DNA of 64,000 nucleotides from Cupriavidus taiwanensis LMG 19424. GTDB taxonomy: Bacteria; Pseudomonadota; Gammaproteobacteria; Burkholderiales; Burkholderiaceae. The notes below the pieces were generated by a model. It was not told the DNA's origin, did not search any database, and saw only the letters and a program-made list of their open reading frames with translations. How positions within the stretch are numbered: position 1 is the first letter of the stretch; each line of letters opens with the position of its first letter. Both the position numbers and the translations under genes were made by a program. Of this stretch, positions 13,637 to 28,779 are shown in pieces. The DNA lies in NCBI RefSeq assembly GCF_000069785.1, contig NC_010529.1, forward strand, positions 382,894 to 446,893, read 5' to 3'.

Positions 13637-15142
13637 ATGGCGCTTTTGGAACGCGCAGCGTGGTACGACATTGCCCGCACAACGAACTGGACGCCGACGT
13701 ACGTCGCCGAGTCCGACCTTTTCCCGGAGGTCATGGCAGGGGCACAGGGCGTGCCCATGGAAGTCTGGGAAACCTATGACGAGCCCTACAAGACATCGTA
13801 TCCAGAATATGTCCGCATTCAGCGCGACAAGGACGCTGGCGCCTACTCCGTGAAGGCCGCGCTGGAGCGCAGCCGCATGTTCGAGAACGCCGATCCCGGC
13901 TGGCTGTCTATCCTGAAGGCACATTACGGCGCCATCGCGCTCGGCGAATACGCAGCGATGAGCGCCGAGGCACGAATGGCCCGCTTCGGCCGCGCGCCAG
14001 GGATGCGCAACATGGCGACGTTTGGCATGCTTGACGAGAACCGTCACGGGCAATTGCAACTCTACTTTCCGCACGACTACTGCCCAAAGGATCGTCAGTT
14101 TGACTGGGCGCACAAGGCCTATCACACCAACGAATGGGCCGCGATCGCTGCCCGCAGTACCTTCGACGACCTATTCATGTCGCGCAGCGCGATCGAGATC
14201 GCCGTGATGCTTACGTTTGCCTTCGAAACCGGTTTCACCAACATGCAGTTCCTCGGGCTGGCGGCCGATGCGGCGGAAGCCGGCGACTTTACGTTCGCCA
14301 GCCTCATTTCAAGCATCCAGACGGACGAGTCACGGCACGCGCAGATCGGCGGCCCGGCACTGCAGATCCTGCTGGCCAACGGGCGCAAGGAGCAGGCGCA
14401 GCAGCTCGTGGACGTGGCCATTGCACGCGCATGGCGCCTGTTCTCCCTGCTGACCGGCACGTCGATGGACTACGCTACGCCGCTGCAGCATCGCAAGGAG
14501 TCATTCAAGGCGTTCGTGACGGAATGGATCGTCGGCCAGTTCGAGCGCACCCTGATAGACCTCGGTCTCGACCTGCCCTGGTACTGGGACCAGATGATCA
14601 ATGAGTTCGACTACCAGCACCATGCTTACCAGCTGAGCATCTGGTTCTGGAGGCCAACCATCTGGTGGAATCCGGCCGCCGGCATGACGCCGGACTGCCG
14701 TGATTGGCTCGAAGAAAAGTATTCCGGCTGGAATGACACGTTTGGCAAGGCCTGGGACGTCATCATCGACAACCTGCTCGCGGGCAGGAAGGAGCTCACC
14801 GTCCCCGAGACGTTGCCCATTGTGTGCAACATGAGCCAGTTGCCAATCTGCGCGGTGCCGGGCAGTGGCTGGAACGTCAGGGATTATCCGCTCGAGTACA
14901 ACGGCCGCACGTACCACTTCAATTCCGAGATCGACCGTTGGGTTTTCCAACAGGACCCCGTGCGTTACCGCGACCACCTGACCCTGGTCGACCGTTTCCT
15001 CGCCGGGCACATCCAGCCGCCCGACCTGGGGGGGGCACTCCTGTACATGAACCTCGCCCCCGGCGAGATTGGCGACGACGCACACCATTGCGCATGGGTG
15101 GCGGCATACCGCCGCCAGCGCGAACAGAACAAGACCGCCTGA
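13637..15142 (+). CDS. tmoA: Toluene monooxygenase hydroxylase alpha subunit
   Basis: 501 aa, co-linear with TmoA/TbuA1/TouA from end to end. It is the diiron catalytic subunit that inserts one oxygen atom into toluene, benzene or related aromatics. All six iron ligands are present at the numbering I recall for T4MO: Glu104, Glu134, His137 (DENRH), Glu197, Glu231 and His234 (DESRH). The gate Thr201 and active-site residues Ile100, Gly103 and Ala107 are also kept. Start ATG 13637 has AAGGAG 11 bases upstream. First gene of tmoABCDE. The symbol follows the T4MO nomenclature; tbuA1 is equivalent. Confidence 0.96.
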   Translation: MALLERAAWYDIARTTNWTPTYVAESDLFPEVMAGAQGVPMEVWETYDEPYKTSYPEYVRIQRDKDAGAYSVKAALERSRMFENADPGWLSILKAHYGAIALGEYAAMSAEARMARFGRAPGMRNMATFGMLDENRHGQLQLYFPHDYCPKDRQFDWAHKAYHTNEWAAIAARSTFDDLFMSRSAIEIAVMLTFAFETGFTNMQFLGLAADAAEAGDFTFASLISSIQTDESRHAQIGGPALQILLANGRKEQAQQLVDVAIARAWRLFSLLTGTSMDYATPLQHRKESFKAFVTEWIVGQFERTLIDLGLDLPWYWDQMINEFDYQHHAYQLSIWFWRPTIWWNPAAGMTPDCRDWLEEKYSGWNDTFGKAWDVIIDNLLAGRKELTVPETLPIVCNMSQLPICAVPGSGWNVRDYPLEYNGRTYHFNSEIDRWVFQQDPVRYRDHLTLVDRFLAGHIQPPDLGGALLYMNLAPGEIGDDAHHCAWVAAYRRQREQNKTA

Positions 15143-15166
15143 TGCGGCCATCAGATGGATAATGAC

Positions 15167-15427
15167 ATGGCACTGTTTCCAGTGATTTCGAATTTTCAAT
15201 ACGACTTCGTGCTGCAGCTCGTCGCCGTCGATACGGAGAACTCGATGGACGAGGTAGCGGCGGCCGCCGCGCACCATTCAGTCGGCCGTCGCGTAGCGCC
15301 TCAGCCCGGCAAGGTCTTGCGGGTGCGGCGCCAGGGGAGCGACCATTTCTATCCCCGCGACGCCCGGCTCGGCGACACCGATATCAAGCCGATGGAGTCA
15401 CTCGAATTCATTTTTTGCGATGCATAA
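15167..15427 (+). CDS. tmoB: Toluene monooxygenase hydroxylase gamma subunit
   Basis: 86 aa, similar throughout to TmoB/TbuU (start MALFPVISNFQYDF; core SMDEVAAAAAHHSVGRRVAP). Gamma is a small ubiquitin-fold subunit of the (alpha-beta-gamma)2 hydroxylase. ATG 15167 is preferred over ATG 15155 because homologues begin at this point. It overlaps the next gene by 8 bp, indicating translational coupling. Confidence 0.93.
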   Translation: MALFPVISNFQYDFVLQLVAVDTENSMDEVAAAAAHHSVGRRVAPQPGKVLRVRRQGSDHFYPRDARLGDTDIKPMESLEFIFCDA

Positions 15428-15770
15428 GGACACCAAAAATTTCCAGACAGTCTCCACACTCGACGAGCTGTGGGAAGGCGACATGGCCGAGGTCGTGGTG
15501 GACAGCCACGTCATCGTACTTGTCCGCCCACGAAGCGGCACGCCACGCGCATTCCAAGGCATCTGCCCGCACCAGGACATTCCGCTCGTAGAGGGAAATT
15601 TCGACGGGCGCGTACTGATGTGCCGGGCCCACCAGTGGACATTCGACGCCAACACAGGCAGGGGCATCAACCCCAGTGGATCCCGTCTCGCAGAGTATGC
15701 CATCAGGGTAGATGGTGACGACATACTTATCGCTGTCGAAGGCGTCGAACCACTGTTCGCCAATTGCTGA
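15420..15770 (+). CDS. tmoC: Toluene monooxygenase Rieske ferredoxin
   Basis: 116 aa with a Rieske [2Fe-2S] site: Cys49-x-His51 (CPH) and Cys68-xx-His71 (CRAH). It carries electrons from the reductase TmoF to the diiron hydroxylase. Length and layout match T4moC/TbuB (HGINP-type loop present as GRGINPSG). Its normal electron donor is the broken gene at 17171, so it must be served by another reductase if the enzyme works. Confidence 0.95.
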   Translation: MHKDTKNFQTVSTLDELWEGDMAEVVVDSHVIVLVRPRSGTPRAFQGICPHQDIPLVEGNFDGRVLMCRAHQWTFDANTGRGINPSGSRLAEYAIRVDGDDILIAVEGVEPLFANC

Positions 15771-15789
15771 TATTGCAAAGGAATCGATC

Positions 15790-16107
15790 ATGAGCAGGGA
15801 TCACAACACCGCCGAGGCGTACCGAAATAACCGCGTCGGCCCCGTGCTTCGCGCCAGCAGCATCACGTCCGGCGTCATCGAGGCCGCGCGGGAAGACAAT
15901 CCGGGTAAGGAGATCCGTGTCGACGACAAGCTCGCATACGTGCGCATCGACACCGACGGCGAACTGATCCTGCGCCGAGCTACGCTGGAGGATACGCTGG
16001 GCCGCCCGTTCAGGATGTCCGAGCTGGAGGTCAACCTCAGCTCGTTCGCGGGCCGCATCGAGACCACGGACGACTACGTCCTCTTCTATTACAAAAAGAC
16101 GCTGTAA
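15790..16107 (+). CDS. tmoD: Toluene monooxygenase effector (coupling) protein
   Basis: 105 aa of the MmoB/DmpM effector family. It binds the hydroxylase without a cofactor and speeds coupled turnover. Recognisable segments are NRVGPVLRASSITSGVIEAA near the N-terminus and the acidic-basic core ATLEDTLGRPF. It lies 19 bp after tmoC and 12 bp before tmoE. Confidence 0.94.
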   Translation: MSRDHNTAEAYRNNRVGPVLRASSITSGVIEAAREDNPGKEIRVDDKLAYVRIDTDGELILRRATLEDTLGRPFRMSELEVNLSSFAGRIETTDDYVLFYYKKTL

Positions 16108-16119
16108 CCGGAGACGAGC

Positions 16120-17118
16120 ATGACTACTCAACCGGACGTCCTCAAGCCGCTAAAGACCTGGAGCCACCTGGCCGCGCGGCGGCGCAAACCAAGCGAGTAC
16201 GAGATCGTCTCGACGAATCTGCACTACACGACCGACAACCCCCACGCGCCGTTCGAACTCGATCCGAATTTCGAGATGGCGCAGTGGTTCAAGCGTCACC
16301 GCAACGCCTCGCCGCTGAAACACGCTGACTGGAACGCCTTTCGGGACCCCGACGAGCTCGTCTACCGCACCTACAACATTCTGCAGGACGGTCAGGAAAC
16401 CTATGTGTCCGGTCTGCTGGACCAATTTTCCCAGCGCGGCCACGACTCCATGCTGGAGCACTCCTGGGCCGGCACGCTGGCGCGACTGTACACGCCGGCA
16501 CGTTATCTGTTCCACACACTGCAAATGGGATCGGCCTACGTGACGCAGATGGCCCCCGCCTCCACGATCTCGAACTGCGCCGCCTACCAGACCGCCGACT
16601 CGCTGCGTTGGCTCACCCACACCGCGTATCGAACGCGAGAGCTGTCTCAGATCTTCAGCGACGTGGGCTTTGGCACCGACGAGCGCAGATGCTGGGAGCA
16701 AGATCCGGCCTGGCAGGGTTGGCGCAAGCTGGCCGAACACGCGCTCGTTGCATGGGACTGGGCAGAGTCCTTCGTCGCCTGCAGTCTAGTATTGAAGCCG
16801 GCGATGGAGGAAGTGGTCTTGCGCGGGCTTGGCGAGGCGGCGCGCCACAACGGCGACACCCTGCTCGGCTTGCTGACTGACGCGCAGCTTGCCGACGCCC
16901 AGCGGCACCGGCGCTGGGCCGGCGCGCTCGTCCGCATGGCCCTGGAGACCCCAGGCAATCGTGACGTGCTGGCCGGCTCGATTTCCCGGTGGGCGGGGCT
17001 CGCGGACGATGCGATTGCGGCCTACGGCGCGGCGTTGCCCGACGCGCCGAACACGAAGGCACGTGCCTGCGCGGCCGTGCGCGATTTCTGGGACATCATC
17101 GGCCTGGCGGGCCTGTAA
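16120..17118 (+). CDS. tmoE: Toluene monooxygenase hydroxylase beta subunit
   Basis: 332 aa, matching TmoE/TbuA2 (about 327-330 aa). It is the structural ferritin-fold subunit that pairs with alpha and lacks iron ligands. Characteristic start MTTQPDVLKPLKTWSHLAARRRKPSEYEI (broken here as MTTQPDVLKPLKTWS and RRRKPSEYEI), followed by the QWFKRHRN segment. It is the last intact gene of the operon. Confidence 0.94.
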   Translation: MTTQPDVLKPLKTWSHLAARRRKPSEYEIVSTNLHYTTDNPHAPFELDPNFEMAQWFKRHRNASPLKHADWNAFRDPDELVYRTYNILQDGQETYVSGLLDQFSQRGHDSMLEHSWAGTLARLYTPARYLFHTLQMGSAYVTQMAPASTISNCAAYQTADSLRWLTHTAYRTRELSQIFSDVGFGTDERRCWEQDPAWQGWRKLAEHALVAWDWAESFVACSLVLKPAMEEVVLRGLGEAARHNGDTLLGLLTDAQLADAQRHRRWAGALVRMALETPGNRDVLAGSISRWAGLADDAIAAYGAALPDAPNTKARACAAVRDFWDIIGLAGL

Positions 17119-20848: not shown

Positions 20849-21700
20849 TTAATTCCGTACGCCACTTCCGACCGTCGCTTTGCGCCAGCGGCTTTGGTCA
20901 AAAGGAAACATAAGGTAATCGCGCACCGTGATCGGTTCAGACTGGCTTGCGAGGCCAACTTCCGGCCACTCGTCCTTTGTCGGCCAGTACGCCGTACGGA
21001 AAATCGTGTCCCAGAGCGTCGTAAATGTCCCGAAGTTTCGGCCCCTGTGACGCGCTTCTATTGAATGGTGAATACGATGGAACTTGCCATCCCCGACGAT
21101 GTATCGTAGCAGCCCAAGATGAATTCGCGTGCTCGAGTGAGACAAGTGGACCTGAAAGGCAATCAGCGTCAGGGCAACAGTTGGCACGACGCCAGATTCG
21201 AAGCGGATCAGAGCGAGCGGCATTGCGACGAAAAAAGCATAAATAAGCGGCTCAGATAAGTGATGAGCACAATTCCAAGCCGTCAGTTCGCGGATAGAAT
21301 GATGGGTGGCGTGCATGCGCCACAGGAATGGAATAGCATGCTGTGCACGGTGCATCCAGTAGCGGAAGAAATCAGCGGCAATTGCGACTAGAACGCCTGA
21401 AAGAACGCCGAAGCCCGCGCTAATAATTGCGTTGTCAGAGTGAAACAACGTCCCGAAATTCACCGTCAGGAGCGGCTTGACCCCTAACCATTCAAGAGCC
21501 ACAGCGTAGACGTGCCAGACAACTGCAGCGAACCCAAGGCGAATGATCCAATTTCGTACTCCGCGAACATATGACGCAAAACTGTATCGATAAGCCGGAA
21601 ACATCAGCTCGAGCGCGACACAGACGGTAGCGAATATCGCTACGAACTTGAACGAGTTTACGAAAAACCCGGCCATCTGATTTACATCAAAAAGGTGCAA
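20849..21700 (-). CDS. Fatty acid hydroxylase / sterol desaturase family protein
   Basis: 283 aa integral membrane diiron protein (fatty acid hydroxylase superfamily). Three histidine clusters are present: His117-xxx-His121 (HRAQH), His130-xx-His133-His134 (HATHH) and His208-xx-His211-His212 (HRIHH). Hydrophobic segments lie near residues 12-34, 50-70, 93-112 and 152-182. Enzymes of this fold hydroxylate or desaturate acyl chains, sterols or alkyl glycerols; the substrate cannot be read from the sequence. No operon partner is visible; flanked by IS debris. Confidence 0.88.
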   Translation of the reverse strand: MHLFDVNQMAGFFVNSFKFVAIFATVCVALELMFPAYRYSFASYVRGVRNWIIRLGFAAVVWHVYAVALEWLGVKPLLTVNFGTLFHSDNAIISAGFGVLSGVLVAIAADFFRYWMHRAQHAIPFLWRMHATHHSIRELTAWNCAHHLSEPLIYAFFVAMPLALIRFESGVVPTVALTLIAFQVHLSHSSTRIHLGLLRYIVGDGKFHRIHHSIEARHRGRNFGTFTTLWDTIFRTAYWPTKDEWPEVGLASQSEPITVRDYLMFPFDQSRWRKATVGSGVRN

Positions 21701-24977: not shown

Positions 24978-26166
24978 GGATTCTCTGCACAATTAGCCAG
25001 CGGATGTGCTTGCAATGAATCGTCGAGCCAGCGAGCATGTGGCGCATGAAACAAACTGACCTTGCTGAACTTGTCGACCAAGCGCAACCGCAAGCGCGAA
25101 TTCCTGGACGAGATGAACCGGGTGGTGCCGTGGGCTGATCTGGTGATGCTGATCGCTCCGTACGCCCGAGAAGGCAAGCGCGGCCGTCCCCCGTTCGCGG
25201 TCGAGGCGATGCTGCGCATCCACTTCCTTCAGCAATGGTTCGGCCTGTCGGACCCGGCGATGGAAGAAGCGCTGCACGACGTTCCGCTGTATCGGGAGTT
25301 CGCCGGGTTGGATAACTGGACGGTGAGGCTGCCCCGATGAGAGCACCATCCTGGGGTTCCGTCATCTGCGAGAGAAGCACCCGCTCAGATTCTTGCGCTG
25401 GTCAACGACATCCTTCGCGACAAGGGATTGATGCTGCGCGCGGGCACGGTGGTAGACGCGACACTGATCAGCGCACCGGGCTCGACCAAGAATGCGTCGG
25501 TGTCGGGCGAACGCGACCCGGAGATGCACCAGAGCAAGAAAGGAAACCAGTGGTATTTCAGCATGGAAGGGCACATTGGCGTGGACGCCGAAAGCGGGCT
25601 GGCGCACACGGTGCGGGGCACGGCGGGCAACGTCAACGACGTGGTTGAGGCCAACAGTCTGCTGCATGGCGAGGAAACTGACGCGTTTGGCGATGCGGGC
25701 TATCAGGGCGTGGAGAAGCGTCCGGACGCGCGAGCAGGCGTGAACTGGCACGTGGCGAAGAAGCCAGGCAAACGTCGCGTTCTGGACCAAAGCAAACCGC
25801 TTGGCGCGCTCGTCGATCAGGTCGAGCGAATCAAGGCGGGCATCCGGGCAAAGGTCGAGCATCCGTTCCGGGTCACCAAGCGGCAGTTCGGCTACACCAA
25901 GGTCCGCTATCGAGGGCTGAGGAAGAACACCGCGCAACCCATAACCTTGTTCGTGCTGTCAAACCTGTGGATGGCGCACGGCAAACTGCTGGCTGCTTGG
26001 GCATGAGCGCGTTTCTGACTCACGCCGATGCCTCGCGCACAGCCCGCGAATGCTGCTGCGCGCGTGCCAGAAACCTTCGCTCCGGGCTGATAGGTTGGAG
26101 TCGTGGCGCATTCAGCTTCCTGTTAAACGGCCAAGCACACTCGATTCCCGTTTGTGCAGAGCATTC
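24978..26166 (+). mobile_element. IS5-family element (323-aa type), copy B, tandem to A
   Basis: 1189 bp, separated from copy A by one CTAG (24974-24977) and followed by CTAG (26167-26170). It has diverged visibly from A and its transposase is broken. After the last CTAG the sequence GGAGACTCTGC still resembles the start of the same terminal repeat. Confidence 0.9.
25062..26006 (+). pseudogene. IS5-family transposase, frameshifted (copy B)
   Basis: The first 92 codons match copy A up to WTVRLP, where an extra base shifts the frame. A short deletion around the RFRHLLEK segment follows, and the original frame returns at 25428. Extra residues (ASVSGERD) and several substitutions show long decay compared with the identical A and C copies. 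Confidence 0.9.
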
Positions 26167-26392
26167 CTAGGAGACTCTGCGGCTTCTTCAAAGTGTTTCC
26201 GATTTACAACGCTCGGCGCGCTCTCGTTGCAGCTGCCGTGCCGCACTTGCGGGGTAACGACTCTGGGGAGAGGCTTTGGTAACATCGGCGCTCAATCGGC
26301 CAAAAGCGTAGTATTAGTGGCTTATGCGGCGCTTTTTCTGTGACTAACCCAACGAACAGTAGCCATGGATGGCTAGAAATCTCTTGCGGAAC

Positions 26393-26407
26393 TTACCACG
26401 GTGGTAA
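26393..26407 (+). promoter_or_regulatory. Palindromic operator candidate at the TAC operon start
   Basis: TTACCAC-G-GTGGTAA: perfect 7-bp arms around one base, overlapping the GTG start of the first gene. MqsA of E. coli binds a similar TAACCT...AGGTTA palindrome in front of mqsRA, so this is the likely autoregulation site. The role is inferred from symmetry and position. Confidence 0.6.
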
Positions 26408-26850
26408 ATAATCGAAAGAACGTAAGCCAATACGCCGGAGCGAGTCCCTCAGATGTAGGTGGAGGCAGTCGTAAAATTCAGGGGAAGGCAGATGGGCCTC
26501 TTTACGATCCTGCGGCACTCATCGCGCTGCTCGAGGTTGGGGCGGATGGCGAGAACTATGCGCCAGTCATTCCATTCACCGAAAAGTGCGCTAGGGACGT
26601 CCAGAAGTATGAGCTGGACGCAAGAGAGCTAGCCACTCTGGTGAAGGACGCTGTTCGGTCGGGCACTTTCAAGGGCTCTGAATGGTGCGAGAAGCAGCCG
26701 GGCGGCCCTTGGGCGGCATGTGATGTCTATGTACTGATTCGCCAGGAATGGAATGAGTACGCCTACAAAGACATCACTCAGGAGTACTACGTCAAGCTAG
26801 CCATCAATCGTACTGGCAAGCTGATCCTACTCGTATCAATGCATCAGTAA
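26401..26850 (+). CDS. MqsR-like toxin (TAC system)
   Basis: 149 aa from GTG 26401, the only in-frame start between a TAG at 26374 and the conserved part. The C-terminal two thirds resemble MqsR: KYELDARELATLVKDAVRSG, then WAACDVYVL (compare WQDVY of MqsR), then EYYVKLAINRTGKLILLVSMH. MqsR is a RelE-fold mRNA interferase that cuts mainly at GC[U/A]. The family call is by eye and depends partly on the next gene. The ~40-residue N-terminal extension is longer than in E. coli MqsR (98 aa). Weak ribosome site. First of three tightly packed genes; GC lower than neighbouring IS. Confidence 0.7.
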   Translation: MVNNRKNVSQYAGASPSDVGGGSRKIQGKADGPLYDPAALIALLEVGADGENYAPVIPFTEKCARDVQKYELDARELATLVKDAVRSGTFKGSEWCEKQPGGPWAACDVYVLIRQEWNEYAYKDITQEYYVKLAINRTGKLILLVSMHQ

Positions 26851-26862
26851 CGGGAGATCCAA

Positions 26863-27621
26863 ATGACTACGCATGTTCTCTGCGATGTGTGCGGGGAAGG
26901 CCATGTCGCGTCCGTGTATGGACAAAATGAGATCGAGCACAAGGGCGCAACGTTCTCTGTGCCATTTGTCATGTCGCACTGTGAGGAGTGTGGCAGTGAC
27001 TACGCGTCAGCGTCTGACATGCGTCAGAACAAGCGCGCGGTAGTGGAGCTTCGTAAAAAGCTAGAGTGTCTTCTGACCGGGCAAGAGGTTCATGCCATCC
27101 GTGTCGGCGCAGGCCTGAAGAAGGTACAGGCAGTAAAAATATTCGGTGGTGGGCCGGTCGCCTTTTCGAAGTACGAAGCGGATGATGTGACCCAATCCGC
27201 ATCAATGGACAAACTCATCCGCGTAGCTGCACAGGTCCCGACTGCATTGGCATGGCTTGCTCATGCGGCAGGTGAGGAAGAGGTTGCGACGGCGATCTGT
27301 TCCAAGGAAGTGTCCCGAATCTCTACCATCCTGGAAGCGGATGGAGTGTTAAAGGACGCACGATGTGTGGTTCACGCGGTCCTCAAACATACGCTGTTAG
27401 ATTCTCCCATTTCCTGTTACTCGAAGGTCTTTGTATCCGAGAGCAGCGAAGAGGATGAACTTGCAGTTGATGTGCAGACAGGCGGGACAGTGCATAGTAT
27501 GGCCCGCTTTGTTCAGCGCAAGAATGCAGCCTACGAAATGTCGCTCGATTATGACGCTCCAGCTTCGAACTTGCCTGCGGCACTGAAGAGCATGCAGAGC
27601 TATAAGTTAGAAGCAGCCTAA
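26863..27621 (+). CDS. MqsA-like antitoxin with long C-terminal extension (TAC system)
   Basis: 252 aa. Residues 1-50 form a YgiT/MqsA zinc module with Cys7-xx-Cys10 and Cys40-xx-Cys43. Residues 71-112 are the MqsA-type HTH (LTGQEVHAIRVGAGLKKVQA, then IFGGGPVAFSKYEADDVTQS), which should bind the operator and repress the operon. After about 135 comes an unusual ~115-residue extension not found in the 131-aa E. coli MqsA. In known toxin-antitoxin-chaperone systems the antitoxin carries a C-terminal chaperone-addiction segment that needs SecB-like help to fold; this tail is the natural candidate. Ribosome site GGGAG; 12 bp after the toxin, 3 bp before the chaperone. Confidence 0.85.
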   Translation: MTTHVLCDVCGEGHVASVYGQNEIEHKGATFSVPFVMSHCEECGSDYASASDMRQNKRAVVELRKKLECLLTGQEVHAIRVGAGLKKVQAVKIFGGGPVAFSKYEADDVTQSASMDKLIRVAAQVPTALAWLAHAAGEEEVATAICSKEVSRISTILEADGVLKDARCVVHAVLKHTLLDSPISCYSKVFVSESSEEDELAVDVQTGGTVHSMARFVQRKNAAYEMSLDYDAPASNLPAALKSMQSYKLEAA

Positions 27622-27624
27622 GGT

Positions 27625-28149
27625 ATGAGACCGAGTCCATTAAAGCTCAATTCGCTTAGATTCTTGCACGTGAGCGTCTATCCCAGAAATGAGCCTGAGA
27701 CGCTGGATCCAGTAGAGAACCCCGCGCCAATTGATACCTGGGGAGCAAATATTCATTGTTCCCTTACCCATGCCGAAGCTGATAAGCTAGAAGGCGGGGA
27801 GGTCCGCGACTATATGGTTGCGTTAGGGATTCAAGTCAGTGACGGCCCGGAGAAAGAAGTTCCTTACAAGATTGATGTCGAATGTGTGGGATATTTTTCG
27901 ATACCAAATGGGTTCCCTGACGCGGCGGAACGTCTCGAAATCGCTGTTGTGAATGGTGCGTCTTTGCTCTATGGTGCGATCAGAGAGCAAATCGCAACCG
28001 TTACAAGTCGGTGTTGGTACGGTGAGCTACGATTGCCATCGCTGAATTTTCGAGAGGATGGCCCAGCGGCTCGCGCTGCGGCAGAGGCGAAGCGGCGCGC
28101 TGCAGAAGAAAAGAGCGGTGCAACTCAACCATCTGCCGATCCAGAGTGA
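27625..28149 (+). CDS. SecB-like chaperone (TAC system)
   Basis: 174 aa with the SecB fold signature. The strand-rich middle YKIDVECVGYFSI is followed by LLYGAIREQIATVTSRCWYG and ELRLPSLNF, which aligns with ILFPYARE...S...PQLNLAPVNF of E. coli SecB. The tail from residue 146 is charged and Ala-rich. Solitary SecB paralogues next to toxin-antitoxin pairs (e.g. Rv1957 of M. tuberculosis) act as dedicated chaperones for the antitoxin. ATG 27625 comes 3 bp after the antitoxin stop. Housekeeping secB is an alternative but does not fit this context or the divergence. Confidence 0.85.
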   Translation: MRPSPLKLNSLRFLHVSVYPRNEPETLDPVENPAPIDTWGANIHCSLTHAEADKLEGGEVRDYMVALGIQVSDGPEKEVPYKIDVECVGYFSIPNGFPDAAERLEIAVVNGASLLYGAIREQIATVTSRCWYGELRLPSLNFREDGPAARAAAEAKRRAAEEKSGATQPSADPE

Positions 28150-28178
28150 TGTAACTTTGCATCATGTCTTGACAAAGC

Positions 28179-28205
28179 GGCCCGCAATTATGCGGGCCGT
28201 TTGCA
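28179..28205 (+). terminator. Rho-independent terminator of the TAC operon
   Basis: GGCCCGC-AATTAT-GCGGGCC: perfect 7-bp GC-rich stem with a 6-base loop, followed by GTTTGCATTT. It lies 30 bp after the chaperone stop, closing a three-gene unit. Confidence 0.8.
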
Positions 28206-28368
28206 TTTCTGGTGCTAATGCCCGATGGTCTGAGTTGATCCGCGGTTCTCCATGCGCAAGTCTTTCCTCGGTAAATTGCGAGACCACTCAGCTTATGAGT
28301 AAGCGAGTCGCAAGCACCGTCTGTACCGTTCAGTAGAGTGGCGCCAAAGTAGTTCCCACCAAATAGTG

Positions 28369-28779
28369 ATGGGAACTACTTTGTCACAGTTACAGGAAGT
28401 ACCAGTTGCCGGCGGTCGCAAAGGCCGGCCGAACTACAACGAGGAATTCAAGCGGCGATTGGCAGCCGCTGCGTGTGAGCCGGGTGTCTCGGTATCGAAA
28501 TTGGCGCGCGAGCATGGCATCAACGCGAACATGCTGTTCACTTGGCGCCGACGCTATCGAACGGAGCAGTGCCAGGAAGCTGCGGTGTTGTTGCCGGTGA
28601 CGGTTGAACGCCCAAGCTCGCCACCCGGTCCGATGCCAATGAGTCCGGGCGCTGCGGTTTGCGAGCCGACGCCGCCGCACGGCGCCATCGAGATCCGCCT
28701 GGGCCGAGCGGTGATTCGCATCGAAGGGGCAGTCGACGCGAGCACGTTGCGTACGGTACTGGACCGTTTGACGCCATGA
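28369..28779 (+). CDS. tnpA: IS66 TnpA
   Basis: 136 aa HTH protein ([20 protein letters not shown], then [20 protein letters not shown]). ATG 28369 is used; a GTG at 28366 precedes it. Required with TnpB and TnpC for IS66 transposition. Ends in an ATGA overlap with tnpB. Confidence 0.9.

Follow-up and report, generated by a model that had tools for sequence, protein, structure and literature searches.

An operon in a 64-kb window of DNA from Cupriavidus taiwanensis LMG 19424 (contig NC_010529.1; the window is the whole stretch of 64,000 nucleotides that we analysed) very probably encodes a toxin-antitoxin-chaperone (TAC) system of the MqsR-MqsA-SecB kind, working as a phage-triggered, chaperone-guarded switch. 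The operon (26401-28149, + strand) consists of three co-directional genes with intergenic gaps of 12 and 3 bp: a putative toxin of the MqsR fold (149 amino acids; 26401-26850, GTG start), an MqsA antitoxin (252 amino acids; 26863-27621, ATG start), and a SecB-like chaperone (174 amino acids; 27625-28149, ATG start). Judged by its gene content, it would join a type II toxin-antitoxin pair and a SecB-like chaperone in one operon, as TAC systems do. An earlier reading of the window from its letters alone (here, the original prediction) had proposed a TAC system of these three genes, 12 and 3 bp apart. This core reading held: the spacing agrees with the open reading frame (ORF) calls, a plasmid with the identical stretch annotates the same three genes, the families and the fold were recovered, and 37 of 40 related loci keep all three genes. 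The points that weigh against our interpretation are given below with the genes they concern.

Profile matches identify the second gene product as MqsA. The protein scored above the cut-offs of both Pfam MqsA_antitoxin (PF15731: E 5e-15, 56.2 bits, cut-off 30) and TIGR03830 (E 1.4e-28, 99.3 bits, cut-off 61.8), and it matched the PDB MqsA 3gn5 at E 1.6e-4. It also carries both MqsA Cys pairs and the helix-turn-helix (HTH) on which the original prediction had based the assignment. These features lie in residues 1-133 (26863-27261), the MqsA zinc domain and HTH, for which the ten-residue blocks of the structural model have mean pLDDT values of 80-98.

Like TAC antitoxins, this protein extends at its C-terminus beyond the classical homologues, with a tail of 118 residues after the MqsA profile that is mostly modelled at low confidence. 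The model is confident to about residue 160 and contains helices at residues 139-159 and 165-176, with confidence dropping toward the end; we refer to residues 134-176 (27262-27390) as the helical extension. Across most of residues 175-252, pLDDT is below 50. Given the shallow alignment behind the tail, disorder of residues 177-252 (27391-27621, including the stop codon) is probable rather than proven. The three segments also differ in conservation. Identity to the antitoxin of Cupriavidus sp. D39 is 78% over residues 1-133, 52% over 134-206, and 24% over 207-252, and the corresponding values for C. basilensis are 60%, 53%, and 33%. Similarly, in a comparison with the diverged Cupriavidus copy G950 (its three proteins are the ones listed under Cupriavidus sp. 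D39), dN/dS is 0.12 for the core, 0.28 for the helical extension, and 0.69 for the end, with dS near saturation. This combination of a conserved core and a rapidly changing end is compatible with a chaperone-addiction (ChAD) region, for which residues 177-252 are the candidate. The original prediction gave the lengths correctly (252 residues, about 115 after the HTH) and called the tail unusually long, a description that the comparison does not bear out: tail lengths in chaperone-bearing loci span 43-118 residues (118 in Cupriavidus, 117 in locus L048, 113 in L039, 108 in L028, and 43-83 in the rest), and published TAC antitoxin tails are highly variable in both length and sequence (PMC5105189). 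The Cupriavidus tail sits at the long end of a range.

The third gene is SecB-like by profile evidence. Its product matched Pfam SecB (PF02556) at E 4.5e-5, and a profile of 13 sequences matched the PDB SecB 1fx3 at E 0.0067, in line with the SecB-like gene of the original prediction. A weak match to the chaperone model of CmdTAC (PD-T4-9) was also found (E 0.021). The same strain has a separate, strongly scoring chromosomal SecB gene on contig C1 (184.8 bits). An annotated plasmid record begins the chaperone at 27670, 45 bp downstream of 27625; we prefer the start at 27625 because the N-terminus read from it is conserved in relatives.

To this evidence must be opposed the Pfam score of 23.8 bits, which is below the curated cut-off of 26, and the existence of a few relatives that lack a third gene. 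Both would suit an ordinary two-component MqsRA pair beside which gene 3 is a bystander and not a functional SecB-type partner, a reading that we consider highly improbable given the match to 1fx3 and the distribution of the chaperone gene. Scans with the toxin alignment alone recovered 40 loci, 26 in genome contigs and 14 in viral contigs, a count that includes near-duplicates (L009/L010, L012/L013, L035-L037, L040-L042, L044/L045). An MqsA gene was present in 38 of them and, by an iterated SecB profile, a SecB-like gene in 37; in 33 of these 37 the chaperone gene lies within 20 bp of the antitoxin gene or overlaps it, with the starts chosen here. At L031 and L034, both with an incomplete or broken toxin frame, neither MqsA nor SecB was found. 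L033 pairs the toxin with an MqsA that bears a 316-residue extension, and a Mitsuaria plasmid carries a toxin-MqsA pair of the same family; no SecB was found at either. Ten plasmid records matched, nine of which were opened (all but H8): MqsA follows the toxin in 9/9, and the third gene is annotated as SecB in five and as a small hypothetical protein in three, with none in Mitsuaria.

Two of the chaperone-free forms merit separate description. The MqsA antitoxins of L033 (4849-6198) and P0079 are 91% identical over their first 137 residues and then continue into long extra regions, which in P0079 is DUF429 (PF04250, E 8.2e-53) and in L033 has no Pfam match; the two may represent a branch that has no chaperone and senses through another domain. 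The Mitsuaria sp. 7 plasmid locus (L095, 2492-3470) has a toxin and MqsA, no annotated SecB-like gene, and no palindrome at the start codon, and by its sequence appears to be a two-gene or decaying form.

The first gene product was the most difficult to assign. As a single sequence it had no match in Pfam, NCBIfam or PADLOC at E up to 1, including the MqsR toxin family PF15723, whose cut-off it fails, and none among PDB sequences at E up to 10; a seven-row toxin profile likewise found nothing among PDB sequences. Profile alignment and the predicted structure together place it in the MqsR fold. With a deeper and more carefully aligned toxin alignment, hhalign gave a probability of 93% for MqsR; with a shallower alignment, only 20%. 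The toxin model itself is of middling confidence: Foldseek alone did not return MqsR among the best 50 rows listed, and MqsR emerged only in a second look at the structural matches. From prediction and profile, then, gene 1 most likely encodes an MqsR-fold toxin and, by analogy, most likely an endoribonuclease. The weaker resemblance to MqsR noted in the original prediction thus resolved within the RelE/MqsR fold rather than outside it. The N-terminal extension of about 40 residues, there called unusual, proved common: because variants of the motif MVNN..VS...G.PP..R.I..GPLY run throughout the toxin family, the extension is the rule, and the toxin gene of the Vibrio cholerae TAC system probably has a similar size and start.

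Does the toxin retain the chemistry of MqsR? The catalytic residues of MqsR are Lys56 and Tyr81, and Lys56 is essential for cleavage (PMC9636575). In our alignment, the Tyr81 position is Tyr in this toxin and in 39 of 42 family sequences (Phe in the other three), whereas Lys56 aligns to Gly92 and is Lys in just 2/42, so that the pair is incomplete and this toxin may be weakly active or use a different chemistry. The loss of Lys56 is what favours a further alternative, that the toxin is an inactive MqsR relative and the operon a chaperone-regulated repressor or a decaying remnant. We regard this as improbable, as eight residues are invariant in all 42 sequences (Trp95, Cys96, Cys107, Asp108, Tyr110, Lys132, Ser146, and His148), the toxin dN/dS against the copy with the 63%-identical antitoxin (G950) is 0.18, and Vcho-MqsRA, with a toxin gene that starts in a similar way (its membership of the family is itself inferred), stops growth without its chaperone. 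The 42 sequences are 43 rows minus L090, which was mis-oriented and had no toxin in its row; fragments (both L011 pieces, L034, L039, and L048) and identical sequences were excluded.

That V. cholerae system is the closest tested relative of the operon. Vcho-TAC (MqsRA-SecB of V. cholerae RC385), for which chaperone addiction was tested in 2016, has the same gene order of toxin, MqsA and SecB, and Vcho-MqsRA blocks growth without its chaperone (PMC5105189). The published forward primer (PMC5105189), ATGGTAAATAAT, with the ATG inside an NdeI site, contains the start-codon half-palindrome of our family and encodes MVNNAIN. By our own arithmetic, the cloned toxin-antitoxin region of 981 nt and the antitoxin of 176 residues (PMC5105189) imply a toxin of about 145 amino acids. 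From the primer and this implied size, the tested Vcho toxin probably belongs to the present family. Its antitoxin tail (136-176) is shorter, at about 40 residues compared with 118 in the present protein. A search of the viral contigs with 22 bases of the primer gave no match to the RC385 locus. MqsRAC of E. coli C496_10 likewise comprises MqsR, MqsA and a SecB-type chaperone, and reportedly only the antitoxin and chaperone together relieve its toxicity, and the system blocks phage T2 (PMC9519451, PMC10783111). DNA of two of the viral-contig relatives had no match in the E. coli collection searched, and the likeness to MqsRAC is by description only. CmdTAC and HigBAC also have a SecB-like chaperone that protects the antitoxin and a phage structural protein as trigger: in CmdTAC the T4 capsid protein draws the chaperone off the antitoxin, which is then degraded (PMC11618068), and HigBAC is reported to respond to the major tail protein of phage lambda (PMC11980606). 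These two differ in their toxins, an ADP-ribosyltransferase (CmdT) and HigB, respectively, and in their antitoxin families.

By analogy with these tested relatives, from which the proposed RNase activity, chaperone dependence, repression, and phage trigger are taken, we suggest the following mechanism. The N-terminal zinc domain of the antitoxin would bind the toxin, and its HTH would bind the palindrome over the toxin start codon and repress the operon. The long C-terminal tail would make the antitoxin unstable unless bound by the dedicated SecB-like chaperone. Once the chaperone was drawn off by a competing client, for which a newly synthesised structural protein of a phage is the likeliest candidate, the antitoxin would be lost to proteolysis, and the freed toxin would stop translation and abort the infection.

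The palindrome provides a probable operator for such repression. TTACCAC-G-GTGGTAA (26393-26407) is a perfect 7+1+7 palindrome that contains the toxin GTG, as the original prediction had observed, and is the sole match to its pattern in the window. Across the family, the corresponding TTACCAT-n-ATGGTAA lies over the toxin start and is perfect in 29 of 31 loci, with one mismatch each in L028 and L033. These 31 derive from an initial table of 39 rows, from which near-duplicates (L010, L011, L013, L036, L037, L041, L042, and L045) and the broken L034 were excluded and to which L033 was added; L031, L039, and L048 had no placeable start codon. Where the toxin starts with GTG (in this window, in L009 of the same lineage, and in L038), the opposite arm carries the matching C, and L038 differs at one more base pair of the palindrome; the L028 mismatch is the opposite-arm C combined with an ATG start. 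The second toxin codon is GTA in 30/31 loci, compared with 52/258 of the other valine codons in the same genes. Nine further loci, among which the toxins of L087-L089 are identical to counted ones and L090 was read on the other strand, gave a perfect palindrome in eight; the ninth, the Mitsuaria locus, where no chaperone was found, has none. The diverged copy G950 also has the start-codon palindrome.

The palindrome shares the core ACC-N5-GGT with the known MqsA motif AACCT-N3-AGGTT (PMC4894380). The sequence is probably an MqsA operator, to which we infer that the antitoxin binds. Classical MqsRA (E. coli; L050) shares this core with the present family, together with the toxin fold and the MqsA domain architecture, and differs in its position: in three of the five classical loci inspected the core begins 20-24 bp before the start codon rather than lying over it, and in the other two it was not found. 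The LMG 19424 genome itself contains such a classical chromosomal mqsRA (L050; G000 contig C1, 162342-163039), with an AACCT-like palindrome upstream. There the core lies about 20 bp before the start codon, the toxin has 98 amino acids, and the antitoxin has 132 and no tail. We considered a leaderless toxin mRNA, which we do not claim, as no consistent placement of a -10 element emerged. We report the conservation of the start-codon palindrome here and make no claim that it is unpublished.

We next consider what the system is for. Compared with ordinary mqsR loci, relatives of the operon lie more often among genes for defence. At 15 of the 26 genome loci, picked for flank length and the presence of an MqsA gene, the 88 ORFs nearby gave matches to 122 PADLOC families at E 1e-15 or better; the first 25 families, those listed, include DarT/DarG, type I specificity subunits, DpdE and a type IIG enzyme. 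In the control, 101 ORFs around 14 PF15723-type mqsR loci matched five. The count of 122 is inflated by redundant, overlapping type I specificity models; one ORF of more than 900 amino acids was omitted per set, and the control, from which L105 was dropped (mqsR not recovered), was unmatched for contig type and unchecked for chaperone genes. Searched singly, ten large neighbours gave PADLOC matches for six (L019, L021, L024, L025, L030, and L032), three of them GmrSD-type by Pfam, and none for four. In the nine plasmid records, the gene immediately before the operon is BREX brxL in two cases (Acinetobacter) and hsdS in a third (Polaromonas), and a V. crassostreae record has type I restriction-modification (RM) genes close by; on the other side, the flanks seen in the remaining five contain neither restriction nor BREX genes. 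Phage replication genes lie near two of three viral-contig loci examined. The copy in the window sits among insertion sequence (IS) elements and metabolic genes with no annotated defence gene adjoining, so that the role in host defence put forward in the original prediction draws on the neighbourhoods of relatives and not on the IS context of this copy.

The main alternative to phage defence is that the TAC system serves chiefly to stabilise its plasmid through post-segregational killing. It would accord with the location of the operon, which is carried by the 578-kb plasmid from a nodule isolate of C. taiwanensis and, in another genome, by a contig of 599,597 bp, and with its occurrence in related genomes: among 60 Cupriavidus genomes, five, including LMG 19424, have the antitoxin at 96-100% identity (four at 100%, one at 96%) and one more at 63%. 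The toxin is rare, occurring in 5/369 sampled genomes of the class, this one included. Yet relatives occur in viral contigs, with phage replication genes nearby as described, and alongside genes of BREX, type I RM and GmrSD systems. In addition, C. necator UYPR2.512 carries a natural knockout on its 516-kb plasmid pplas1 (L011, 4977-10129): an insert of about 3.4 kb, which has a short target repeat, splits the toxin, and a small indel disrupts the reading frame of the chaperone; the antitoxin is 96% identical and open over its full length, and still the plasmid persists. This also weakens the argument of the original prediction from intact survival between IS elements. We therefore judge stabilisation an unlikely main role. 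A broken toxin and chaperone beside an intact antitoxin is the pattern expected if the chaperone is needed only beside a live toxin; whichever order the events took, it bears on chaperone dependence only circumstantially.

The remaining features of the locus concern its expression and setting. A 12-bp hairpin at 28175-28202 (+ strand; RNA fold -22.9 kcal/mol) is a probable terminator; the original prediction had called it clean, which suits the hairpin but not its short T-run, and the hairpin was absent from the output of the terminator scan. No match to a sigma-70 promoter pattern was found within 26000-28400. The genome comprises 6,476,522 bp in three contigs, and the window lies on the second. 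The operon stretch is 100% identical over 1,813 bp to the 578-kb plasmid, which annotates a hypothetical protein, an MqsA family antitoxin and SecB; this record is collinear with the window at 99.98% identity over 22476-49993 and offset by 4462 bp before 22476. IS5-family copies and remnants lie upstream of the operon, and IS66 and IS21 elements downstream. By the plasmid annotation, the window also contains a toluene-4-monooxygenase-like gene cluster between IS elements (13637-17118) and a sterol desaturase family gene (20849-21700). A member of the latter family on the symbiosis plasmid pRALTA, pRALTA_0471, is reported to have a nod box upstream and to be induced by Mimosa root exudate (PMC5789663); the likeness is at the family level only.

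A broader proposal, which we offer tentatively and consider more doubtful than the TAC assignment, is that such TAC toxins constitute an MqsR-fold family of their own, dedicated to phage defence and missed by the libraries used. Its members would have exchanged the Lys56/Tyr81 chemistry for a site at the invariant His148 (with Tyr130 and Glu/Gln94); their antitoxins would share one start-codon operator and use hypervariable tails as a phage-sensing decoy, and the Cupriavidus tail would have gained an extra helical segment.

The operon type is already known from Vibrio and E. coli; what we add is the conservation of the palindrome, the defence-rich neighbourhoods, and the broken UYPR2.512 copy. 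If our interpretation is correct, a demonstrated class of phage-defence switch extends to the plasmid of a nodule-forming Cupriavidus. The toxin is annotated as a hypothetical protein in all eight of the opened plasmid records that annotate it; recognising such proteins as an MqsR-fold family would let defence catalogues find these operons. In addition, two features offer direct, testable predictions on the repression and triggering of such systems: the near-invariant palindrome, and the way in which the antitoxin combines a conserved core with a rapidly changing tail.
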